Positions 1 through 12,850 of a stretch of 33,034 nt of DNA are shown here, piece by piece (the stretch's first letter is position 1; every line of letters begins with the position of its first letter). A model generated the notes under the pieces. It was not told where the DNA came from. It saw nothing but the letters and a program-made list of their open reading frames with translations, and ran no database searches. Source of the stretch: Acidobacteriota bacterium (GTDB lineage Bacteria; Acidobacteriota; Terriglobia; Bryobacterales; Bryobacteraceae); NCBI GenBank assembly GCA_016871015.1, contig VFZX01000039.1:1-33034 (forward strand), written 5' to 3'. The position numbers and the translations under genes were made by a program.

Positions 1-115
1 CATGCGGCTCACCTCTCGCCAGGGCATCCCCCAGCTTAACCGCTGTCCCCCGGTTACCCTTCGTTTGTGTCAACCGCCCACCGGCACACTTGTCAAGGAT
101 GTCTCCGGTTCGCAC
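1..115 (-). mobile_element. Putative 5' end of a group II intron (partial, runs off the window)
   Basis: Read on the minus strand, the membrane-protein coding sequence stops resembling its family at position 116. The next bases are GTGCG, which matches the GUGYG 5' consensus of bacterial group II introns. The stretch ends at the window edge with GAGAGGTGAGCCGCATG, which resembles the GAGCCGNATG segment common before the domain IV ORF of such introns. The available 115 bases are rich in G-runs and have no sensible coding. The distance between the two signatures is shorter than an intact domain I-III, so this may be a deleted or degenerate copy, or a chance match. Domains V-VI, a maturase gene and the second exon would all lie outside the window. 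Confidence 0.4.
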
Positions 116-1248
116 AAGGCCTCCGCGCGCCCATAAGTGAGCACCGAGAGAACCAGCATCGCCACGCCTCCGCCCGCCAACAGGACTTCCTTCGATACCG
201 CCGAACGGGCCAGGTATCCGGCGGCGGCCAGCAGCAGTCCGGCCAGCGGAAGGTAGACGCGGCGCTCGGCCACGACGTCGCGGATCGGCATGAATGACGA
301 GGTCGGCACCAGCCACAACAGAAACAGCAGCAGGCCGAGTCCCACCAGCGGATGCTTCGGCCGGATCCGCCAGGCTCCAGCGATGAGCGCCAGAATCGCA
401 ACGAGTCCGATGATCGAGCCTTGGTCAAACAGCGACCGTGAGATCGCGAAGTCGGTGTCAATATTCAAGCCAAGGGGCAGCACCACGAGCTTGAGGTAGT
501 GCCATACCACGCGGCACTGCGTGAAAAAGTAGTCCATTGGACCCAGGCCCGCGAGACCCAGCCCGGCTGTGTCGGCCAATGACAGCCGCCATGCGACAAA
601 CGCACCACCCGCCGCGCCCAGAACCACGAACAGGCCGTGCAGCCGTGCGTTCACACGGACCGCCGCGATGCCGCCCAGCCAGAAGTCCGTCAGCAGCAAG
701 GCCCCAGGCAGTACGGCGGCCTGCTCCTTGCAGAGCACGGCGCACACGAACAGGACTGCCACCGGCGCGATTCCCGCCCACGTGGCGCCCGCCTCGCGGA
801 TCCGCAGAAACATCAGGTAGGCGGCCAGCGAAAACAGCGCGCTCAACACGTCCGACCGGCCCGCGACATACGCCACCGCCTCGGTCTGGATCGGGTGCAC
901 CAGGAAAATTCCCGCCGCCAGGGCGGAGATCAATTCGTTCCGGGTGAGCCGGCGGAGAATCGCAAACACGAACCCGGCATTGACCACGTGCAGCAGGACA
1001 TTGGTCCAGTGGTAAGCGGACGGATTGACCCCCGACATGCCGTAGTTGATCCAGTAGCTCAACATCAGCACGGGGCGCTGTCCCGCCAGCCATGCGCCCA
1101 CGGGCATGGTGCTTGCGTTCGCGTGGGCGAACGGCAGATACAGGTCGTCCAGTACGAACACTCCGGCCATTGCCGGTCCGTAAATCTCGCCCGCCAGGAT
1201 CAGGGCAGCGAGCACGGATACGGCCAGTTTCCAACCGCTCAACTTCAT
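70..1248 (-). CDS. TMTC/DUF1736-like multi-pass membrane protein, C-terminally interrupted
   Basis: The 392-residue product has an N-terminal membrane anchor, an acidic DDLY motif near residue 35, and about nine to ten hydrophobic segments. The stretches HWTNVLLHVVNAGFVF, FLVHPIQTEAVAYVAGRSD and VLCKEQAAVLPGALLL are typical of the TMTC/DUF1736 family, glycosyltransferase-like membrane proteins that normally carry C-terminal TPR repeats. Here the family pattern ends at LTYGRAEAL (base 116), followed by about 14 unrelated residues and a stop at 70; no TPR is present. The most likely cause is the intron-like sequence starting at 115. The start at 1248 lies 3 bases after the DUF1501 stop, with only a weak ribosome site, so translational coupling to that gene is likely. 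The substrate is unknown. Confidence 0.7.
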   Translation of the reverse strand: MKLSGWKLAVSVLAALILAGEIYGPAMAGVFVLDDLYLPFAHANASTMPVGAWLAGQRPVLMLSYWINYGMSGVNPSAYHWTNVLLHVVNAGFVFAILRRLTRNELISALAAGIFLVHPIQTEAVAYVAGRSDVLSALFSLAAYLMFLRIREAGATWAGIAPVAVLFVCAVLCKEQAAVLPGALLLTDFWLGGIAAVRVNARLHGLFVVLGAAGGAFVAWRLSLADTAGLGLAGLGPMDYFFTQCRVVWHYLKLVVLPLGLNIDTDFAISRSLFDQGSIIGLVAILALIAGAWRIRPKHPLVGLGLLLFLLWLVPTSSFMPIRDVVAERRVYLPLAGLLLAAAGYLARSAVSKEVLLAGGGVAMLVLSVLTYGRAEALCEPETSLTSVPVGG

Positions 1249-7357: not shown

Positions 7358-7486
7358 AGGCAATCTCGAACCAAGTGGTGCCGGCGGACGGTTTGGTCGA
7401 TTGCATTCACCGCCGCCGGGTTAATGTGGGCTTCGCCGCGGATCCGGCTATCGGACGGACCACTGTGGAGGCGGCGACGGCGGCAC

Positions 7487-12000: not shown

Positions 12001-12250
12001 TGGACGCTACGGGACTTCGGCGCGCGGACTGTTCTCGGGTCCGGCGAACGTGACCACGGACTTCGCGATCCTCAAGGATTTCGCGGTCCGCGAGGAGATG
12101 TCGTTCCAACTGCGGGCTGAGATGTTCAACATCTTCAACCAGGTGAACTTCTCGAATCCGATCGCGCAGCTTGCCAATCCCCGGTTCGGACAGATCACGG
12201 GAGCAGGAGCGGGACGGACGATGCAGATGGGGTTGAAGTTCCGGTTCTGA
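9005..12250 (+). CDS. Oar-like TonB-dependent receptor with carboxypeptidase-regulatory domain
   Basis: The 1081-residue outer-membrane protein has a signal peptide (cleavage after LLA near residue 22). A CarboxypepD_reg-like beta-sandwich follows at about 25-110 (GTVSGFVRDPSGAMVANAKLT, SDATGAYQILGL, GVYTLSAESPGFK). A plug domain comes next (VDTRSSETSAVIDGKRLMDL and PVNGRNVFRLAATLPGV, about 125-165; GRNPGANITIVSRQGTNQLHG near 240), then a long beta-barrel ending in MQMGLKFRF with the terminal aromatic residue usual for outer-membrane proteins. Oar-type receptors are greatly expanded in Acidobacteriota and take up large ligands using TonB energy; the ligand here is unknown. AAGGAG before the ATG fixes the start. 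The gene is alone on its strand and probably monocistronic. A separate receptor C-terminal remnant lies at 23085-23352. Confidence 0.92.
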   Translation: MTGFRASSILFFGALLGPALLAQNRGTVSGFVRDPSGAMVANAKLTLTDQRTGAVRDTVSDATGAYQILGLVSGVYTLSAESPGFKRVRNTGLVLEVDQNLRSDVTLEVGTVAESVEVTGAAALVDTRSSETSAVIDGKRLMDLPVNGRNVFRLAATLPGVLGVVAPDNTDLGDTRSGPRMNVNGARGNQNYNRFNGTYFNNPSRNTGLNAPPPDAVQEFKIQTSNFSAESGRNPGANITIVSRQGTNQLHGAAWEFHRNDNLNARSFFQTFRPQLIQNQFGAAAGGPIKRNKLFVFGTFELLRDRRQAATTNAFPTTRAESAGDFSGLLPGKQLVDPANNTPFAGNRIPTSRIDPTARRLLEFVPLVDGGFVQAVGPNPRNSELFMIRSDYIINSRQTLFAHYYLNQNSVSNPVLGYGSTLAGWTGQTQRPRFQNAGLNHTWTLGANLLNQVTLGYTRSYSLTTPSVSRLPGDLGISAMPQYTDGGSPQFQITGRFNLNSGGPVKFVSNVYQFQENLSWIRHRHTFKFGFEHMDLGFFQSFLGPPVFAFNGQRTGAGTATRGDSMADFLLGAYATLGVTNGVRVNDGGNTFTAAYAQDDWKVNPRLTLNLGLRYELPTPWVDKLDRINTVVPDVSVRSKKIPNAPPGMLFAGDLPRGLMNTDMNNFAPRFGFAWDVFGNGKTSVRGAYGLFYDTFNTDTIAQENPPFVGGRQTFIGGQLSNPFASIGRTAPPAFIDPAAFQFVFPINGLWSAIGPNGLRTTYAQEWNFSVSRQLGREYALNVAYIAKTGTKLLAYRPFNAAPFILGNDAQGRPLSTEANAPSRVPFVPGTYGPEGFNLDNAFTSAFHSFQAEVNKRFSKGFQFNSSYVLSKALDTSSTVTLGGCVANPFDTRASRGRADWDRRHNFVFSGVWAPPVPGGQKSLIGRLFGGWNLSGISTIQSGAPVTPTNGQNRALDGTGCSGSHHPDIVSGDVTRQHISRADRITRFFNTGAFQLPALGRYGTSARGLFSGPANVTTDFAILKDFAVREEMSFQLRAEMFNIFNQVNFSNPIAQLANPRFGQITGAGAGRTMQMGLKFRF

Positions 12251-12273
12251 GCCGTCGCTGGAACTGATTGGCC

Positions 12274-12315
12274 GAGCCCGTGGTTCGGCGGATCGTGCCG
12301 AACCGGCAGCGGCTC
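12274..12315. terminator. Strong hairpin between convergent genes
   Basis: A perfect 8-bp inverted repeat GGTTCGGC / GCCGAACC (12282-12289 and 12297-12304) with a 7-base loop is enclosed by an outer GAGCC / GGCTC pair (12274-12278 and 12311-12315). It lies between the receptor stop and the end of the convergent Uma2 gene, where a two-way terminator is expected. No T-tract follows on either strand, so it may act as an mRNA 3' barrier rather than a classic intrinsic terminator. Confidence 0.5.
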
Positions 12316-12850
12316 AAAAGGCGATCTCGATTCGTAGAGTGGTATCCGCGGACAGGCTGGCTTCAATCGTTTCGCCCGCGGCATACACACGCTCGACCGT
12401 GTACCTTCCGTTCACTGGGTTCGAAAAGGCCTCAACACACCGCCCCCGGATGTTCGCGATCCAGTAGTTGGGGATACCCGCGGAGGCGTAGGTGTCGCGC
12501 TTGGTTCCGCGATCCTGATCGAGGCTGGCGTCAGCGGCCTCGACTACCAACGGGACATCGGCCGCCTGGAGCAGGTCCTGCCCTGCCAGGTCTTCCATCC
12601 GGCCACGGACGACGGCCAGATCCGGCTCAGGGACGTTGTCAGCGGTTTCGAGCGGAGCCTCGGTTACGGCGAACCAGCCCGTCGGCAAGGCTTGCTCGAT
12701 CCGGCGGCGGAAGATTTGCAGTTCCAGGCGATCGGCCTCGCTGATGATCCCCGCGTCGAGCATCGCCTTGTATCGCGCCACCGAGAGGCGGAACAGCCCG
12801 CCAGGTGGCAGGCTCACCATTGGCTGAACCGCCGTAGCCGCCATGACCAC
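12314..12850 (-). CDS. Uma2-family (DUF820) endonuclease-like protein with apparent internal deletion
   Basis: The 178-residue product matches the Uma2/DUF820 PD-(D/E)XK-like family. It opens with FRLSVARYKAMLDAGIISEADRLEL, then PEPDLAVVRG near residue 75, PLVVEAADASLDQDRGTKRDTYASAG near 100 and IPNYWIANIRGRCVEAF near 127. The candidate catalytic residues (Asp in PEPD, Glu in VVEAAD, Lys in GTK) are kept. After RLEL, however, the usual LLEGxLVxKMxxNPPH segment is missing and the sequence passes directly to a helix, FRRRIEQALPTGWF. This suggests an in-frame loss of roughly 15-20 residues, and activity is doubtful. The first codon may be the GTG at 12850 or the ATG at 12844, which has GGTGA upstream. 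These genes are commonly multicopy, and their role is unclear. Confidence 0.8.
   Translation of the reverse strand: MVMAATAVQPMVSLPPGGLFRLSVARYKAMLDAGIISEADRLELQIFRRRIEQALPTGWFAVTEAPLETADNVPEPDLAVVRGRMEDLAGQDLLQAADVPLVVEAADASLDQDRGTKRDTYASAGIPNYWIANIRGRCVEAFSNPVNGRYTVERVYAAGETIEASLSADTTLRIEIAF

Follow-up and report, generated by a model that had tools for sequence, protein, structure and literature searches.

A TMTC-like gene of an Acidobacteriota bacterium is very probably split by a high-copy IS481-type insertion sequence

Insertion sequences of the IS3 and IS481 types move by DDE-transposase DNA transposition. Group II introns make no target duplication and carry domain V near their 3' end, and IStrons are known chimaeras that combine an insertion sequence with an intron. 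Target duplications in the IS481 family are given as 2-15 bp, mostly 6 bp, in the available part of one account (PMC10045372). The available part of another describes an IS481-family element of Pseudomonas fluorescens SBW25 with four copies at REP sequences, and mentions a 4-bp duplication (PMC11708052).

The window analyzed here is the whole of contig C39, 33,034 nucleotides of a genome of 8,658,050 bases in 720 contigs. Positions are window coordinates, and both the interrupted gene and the element lie on the minus strand. The window starts inside a high-copy repeat, at which a TMTC-like gene breaks off. We estimate at roughly 95% the probability that this gene is split by a copy of an IS481-type insertion sequence, with ∼95 near-identical copies in the genome, and not by a self-splicing intron, as had been proposed. 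This reading is based on both ends of the element and how many of them there are, an 83-residue transposase N-terminus, the halves of the gene and an in-frame empty site.

The element resembles the IS481 family (LZ_Tnp_IS481; NF033577) in its transposase N-terminus, the start of the ORF near the left end, its many copies, its imperfect TG...CA inverted repeats and its short target duplication. The duplication, at 3 bp, departs from the 6 bp that predominates in the family and lies inside the range of 2-15 bp, as far as the available text goes (PMC10045372). The element shares with that of SBW25 its family, inverted repeats and identical dispersed copies; however, the SBW25 element has four copies, located at REP sequences (PMC11708052, available part), and the present one has 93 left and 96 right ends, with only weak base preferences in the flanks.

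The interrupted gene and its second half

The left edge of the window carries the following gene features:
117..1248, minus strand: 5' part of the TMTC-like gene, from homologue matches; the rest of the gene lies on contig C244 (match at 12020-12511, minus strand)
70..116, minus strand: foreign residues at the end of the truncated ORF, which runs on into the insertion sequence to a stop; the 392-aa ORF ends at 70
117..119, minus strand: left copy of the target-site duplication CCT; the right flank on C244 begins CCTGGGGC, in the 3-bp register

The 392-aa ORF (70-1248, minus strand) encodes the start of a membrane protein. The name TMTC-like is carried over from the original prediction, while the names DUF1501, glycosyltransferase and formylglycine-generating enzyme are presumptive, given by the appearance of the sequences. 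Matches to the gene were found in 18 of 24 other genomes (19 of 25 counting its own), and the 11 best matches from other genomes are 41-55% identical to the ORF. Its match to the Pfam PMT family is weak (E 0.016; 15.2 bits against a cut-off of 22.7). A Pfam profile search of the ORF gave no TPR match, in agreement with the earlier remark that this domain is missing. The ORF tracks its homologues up to ...LTYGRAEA and contains foreign residues thereafter. The original prediction had a mobile element interrupting the gene at this place, and the foreign DNA after LTYGRAEA, which belongs to a high-copy repeat, bears this out. The boundary itself had been set at GTGCG; that sequence is present, but the foreign DNA begins one base earlier, at position 116, with TGTGCG....

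A 568-aa homologue in genome G002 continues with ...RAGVWGDGLKLWQETV... past the break point. A search of the own genome with the C-terminal part of this homologue, and not with the flank sequence, gave its best match close to one end of contig C244 (54% identity, E 7.9e-58; the runner-up reached E 2.0e-11). There, the right end of the element is followed by CCTGGGGCGACGACATCAAACTG: TWGDDIKLWEETV, and then by TPR repeats. The second part expected by the original prediction, starting with Trp and running into TPR repeats, was therefore located on C244; the sequence matching this half scores as TPR in a profile search, and a glycosyltransferase-like ORF comes next. At locus L033 (genome G001), a relative of the ORF at 1252-2634 is followed by a TMTC-like ORF and a glycosyltransferase-like ORF (names given by sequence appearance). 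The own genome splits this order, with the first ORF on C39 and the glycosyltransferase-like ORF on C244.

The two flanks were joined with 0 to 6 bases dropped, and the reading frame was kept at drops of 0, 3 and 6. A drop of 3, corresponding to one CCT, produced ...LTYGRAEAWGDDIKLWEETV..., which is gap-free at the junction compared to the G002 homologue, while a drop of 0 (removal of the element alone) left one codon too many.

Ends, copies and transposase of the element

Three features of the element lie within the window:
1..116, minus strand: left 116 bases of the IS481-type insertion sequence, within which the contig ends (93 left ends in the genome; longer copies reach the transposase ORF)
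1..27, minus strand: first nine transposase codons, MPWREVSRM, which include GAGCCGCATG (from translation, with an in-frame TGA upstream)
91..116, minus strand: left terminal inverted repeat TGTGCGAACCGGAGACATCCTTGACA, an imperfect match, by eye, to the inward-read right end TGCGCGACCGGACACATCCTTGACA

The own genome was scanned with a pattern covering bases 1-28 of the foreign DNA, allowing up to two mismatches. The pattern matched at 93 left ends, 91 of them exactly, one with a single mismatch and one with two, and the pattern scan for right ends gave 96, every one exact. Reversed patterns, used as controls in the same genome, matched 0 places for either end. Since 93 places match compared to none for the reversed pattern, the interruption is more than a chance resemblance. 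With 187 of the 189 ends exact, these counts suggest that the element expanded recently in this genome. A sequence search with the first bases of the window returned at least 40 places, with scoring limited to 40 of 291 candidates.

In 30 copies at left ends and 31 at right ends, the sequence breaks off after 93-340 and 26-338 bases of the element, respectively, which fits an assembler unable to pass a collapsed repeat. Among the 25 distinct left copies with 340 bases, 23 are identical, one differs at a single base and one is partial (C519). The latter (L167, match at 600) comprises, by eye, only the first ∼116 bases and ends just past GAGCCGCATG; a second partial copy, located inside contig C207 (L180, match at 7363-7388), comprises only the last ∼65 bases. 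Tandem ends were also noted: two right ends 103 bases apart in L207 (C403), likewise in L239 (C590), and two left ends 91 bases apart in L172 (C567). These look like nested insertions, and the position within the element is the same for both pairs of right ends.

In the longer copies, an ORF begins at base 90 of the element with MPWREVSRMDSKVEFIEDWQANDLSFSELCRKHGISRQTGY..., preceded by an in-frame stop. Its 83-residue N-terminus matches HTH_28 (44.5 bits; Pfam cut-off 25) and LZ_Tnp_IS481 (37.1 bits; cut-off 22.2). The best NCBIfam match is transpos_IS481 (NF033577; E 1.3e-14, 54.4 bits), a family whose cut-off of 224 bits applies to whole proteins, while only these 83 residues were available here. 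Related ORFs begin with MPW at 11 of 13 loci and with MPWKExxxM at 8 of 13. Both complete relatives that were scanned score close to the family cut-off, L118 at 228.8 bits (above 224) and L108 at 217.8 (just under), and L108 carries rve and rve_3 in a profile search. In the own genome, rve_3 (PF13683) was found at one place, on C283, without a tie to the element. At the right end, the three forward frames reach stops after 18, 10 and 84 codons. A pattern search for the middle of the element found none, a weak negative given that the pattern demanded G or C at one fixed site beyond the end of the copies. The unseen middle would hold a standard DDE core; the catalytic core, the total length and the end of the transposase gene are parts of the element that we infer. 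Judging by related transposases of about 390-420 codons, the whole element would measure 1.3-1.7 kb.

At the DNA level, a search of 40 relatives revealed one related piece, in G002 (80% over 124 query bases). The nearest peptide relatives in genome_contigs (75 residues) are 43% and 48% identical, at two loci, and relatives below 60% occur in 33 plasmid records; both collections may leave out records of the own or very near genomes. In the phylum sample, the peptide was matched at E<=1e-8 in 24 of 395 other genomes, with at most 46% identity. Relative to the collections searched, the element is a new IS481 member of ordinary mechanism and effect, and it may be listed in ISfinder.

Genome G281 contains a multicopy IS481-type relative (L242-L254), 39% identical over the peptide. 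The motif ACATCCTTKACA near the ends is common to the element and this relative, which carries ACATCCTTTACA near both of its ends. Several of the 13 G281 copies adjoin a REP-like palindrome, GCGGCTAAAGCCGC, similarly to the SBW25 element as described in the available part of its report (PMC11708052).

Target duplication and paired insertions

The two ends of the element are imperfect inverted repeats of the form TG...CA. The length of the target duplication was examined in 93 left and 95 right flanks (the right end at C615:2949-2974 was left out of the 96). Base composition at left positions -3 to -1 agrees with that at right positions +1 to +3 (chi2 sum 7.7, 9 df), and all other overlaps from 1 to 9 bp fit worse, e.g. 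22.9 on 3, 17.6 on 6 and 26.4 on 12 df. Identical 3-mers shared by left and right flanks numbered 64, compared to 57.5 (sd 3.8) in shuffles, 250 of 5000 of which reach 64, and to a mean of 47.6 in 100 position-shifted comparisons, the maximum of which is also 64. The shared 3-mers are thus only modestly above these controls. At duplication lengths of 5 to 8 bp, words common to left and right flanks were not in excess. Not every end has a visible partner, which would fit missing partner contigs or recombined copies.

A coding-like boundary ORF is present in 89 of 188 flanks (39 of 93 left and 50 of 95 right). Flanks were paired by eye, and candidates sharing both a 3-mer and a frame were examined first; only the pair of the window was found without this filter. 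Two further paired insertions, both preselected by a shared 3-mer, agree with 3 bp. One interrupts a protein kinase gene at TCC (L151 and L075); this pair is based on reading the residues, and L075 by itself gives no kinase match. The other interrupts a gene for a beta-lactamase-type domain at GTT (L062 and L154), where the profile stretches of the two halves nearly adjoin (1-113 and 125-212 of 214).

A course of events consistent with these data is that an IS481-type DDE insertion sequence, presumably moving by DDE-transposase DNA transposition, came to occupy some 95 places or more in the 8.66-Mb genome. One copy would have inserted into the TMTC-like gene, duplicating the 3 bp CCT, and C39 and C244 would be joined through one copy of the element. 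The gene would now yield a truncated product consisting of the native residues to ...RAEA and a short foreign tail, without the TPR part.

Alternative explanations and wider meaning

One extended version of the insertion-sequence reading is improbable: that the unseen core of this recently expanded IS481-type element encodes more than a standard transposase, and that its right end switches on the downstream halves of the genes that it hits. The right end does contain TTGACA, 17 bases and TAAGGT facing outward, with TAAGGT ending 80 bases from the right end. A scan of the right end for sigma-70 promoters and terminators returned nothing, the TTGACA/TAAGGT site being unscored.

Intron families were sought with Rfam. 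No match was found in the window at gathering scores, and none of the intron families, including the group II covariance models proposed as a check, appeared when 340 bases of the left end and 338 of the right end of the element were searched at E<=1. The only Rfam listings in the ends were mir-4776 and leuA-Halobacteria, in L167, far under their cut-offs. As a positive control, contigs C616 and C228 match group-II-D1D4-4 (102.4 and 79.3 bits, respectively), and C228 also matches the domain V model RF00029 (43.6 bits), while the ends of the element match neither model. RF00029 was detected in at least one place in the own genome, on C228 (150 of 470 first-look candidates scored).

These loci, L009 (C616, with a reverse transcriptase) and L011 (C228), are group II introns of the own genome, and so are mobile DNA in the same genome as the element; the resemblance at GTGCG is probably coincidental. 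RVT_1 was found at two places in the own genome, C616 and C5, and neither contig carries any of the listed element ends. The C5 locus (L010; G000:C5:50835-54473) contains a reverse-transcriptase ORF (RVT_1, 89.4 bits) near two similar repeats (C5 53758 and 54000), which, when aligned, differ by 14 substitutions, every one at an A of the same copy, and by 4 gap positions. This locus looks like a diversity-generating retroelement, and the gene beside the repeats is presumably of the formylglycine-generating-enzyme type.

An assembly error, in which the repeat was wrongly joined to an intact gene, might be suspected from the position of the contig end within a high-copy repeat. It is very unlikely and was rejected: C244 bears the other gene half together with the opposite element end and the CCT that matches, and joining the halves yields a protein without a gap where they meet. 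Just as slight is the chance of an IStron-like chimaera, i.e. transposase-carrying DNA that also splices from RNA. Coincidental signatures and the unseen middle of the element are all that speak for it; neither end gave an Rfam intron match, and removing the element alone, with one CCT kept, leaves an extra codon. This explanation, too, was rejected.

The least probable reading, also rejected, is that the gene is interrupted by a group II intron, possibly a short or degenerate one, that is removed by splicing: GTGCG near the boundary, GAGCCGCATG ∼110 bases on, gene halves joinable in frame and group II introns elsewhere in the genome speak for it, but the visible ORF is of the transposase type, inverted repeats and a 3-bp register are both present, and the ends contain no intron detectable by the Rfam search that recovers C616 and C228. 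The 5' GTGCG is present, yet it lies one base inside the repeat end TGTGCG. GAGCCGCATG (10-1) had been read as an intron signature; GGTGAGCCGCATG consists of codons of the N-terminus of the IS481-type transposase, and the supposed half of domain V is the codons of EVSRM. The original prediction also expected splicing to restore a full-length protein. This would not be expected, because the parts of the element that can be seen, with inverted repeats and a 3-bp direct repeat, are those of an insertion sequence and not of an intron.

For the insertion sequence that we take to split the TMTC-like gene, two general points follow. What looks like short intron signatures near the edge of a contig can be codons of a transposase. 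Where an assembly is fragmented, a gene ending at such an edge may be interrupted by the very repeat that broke the assembly.
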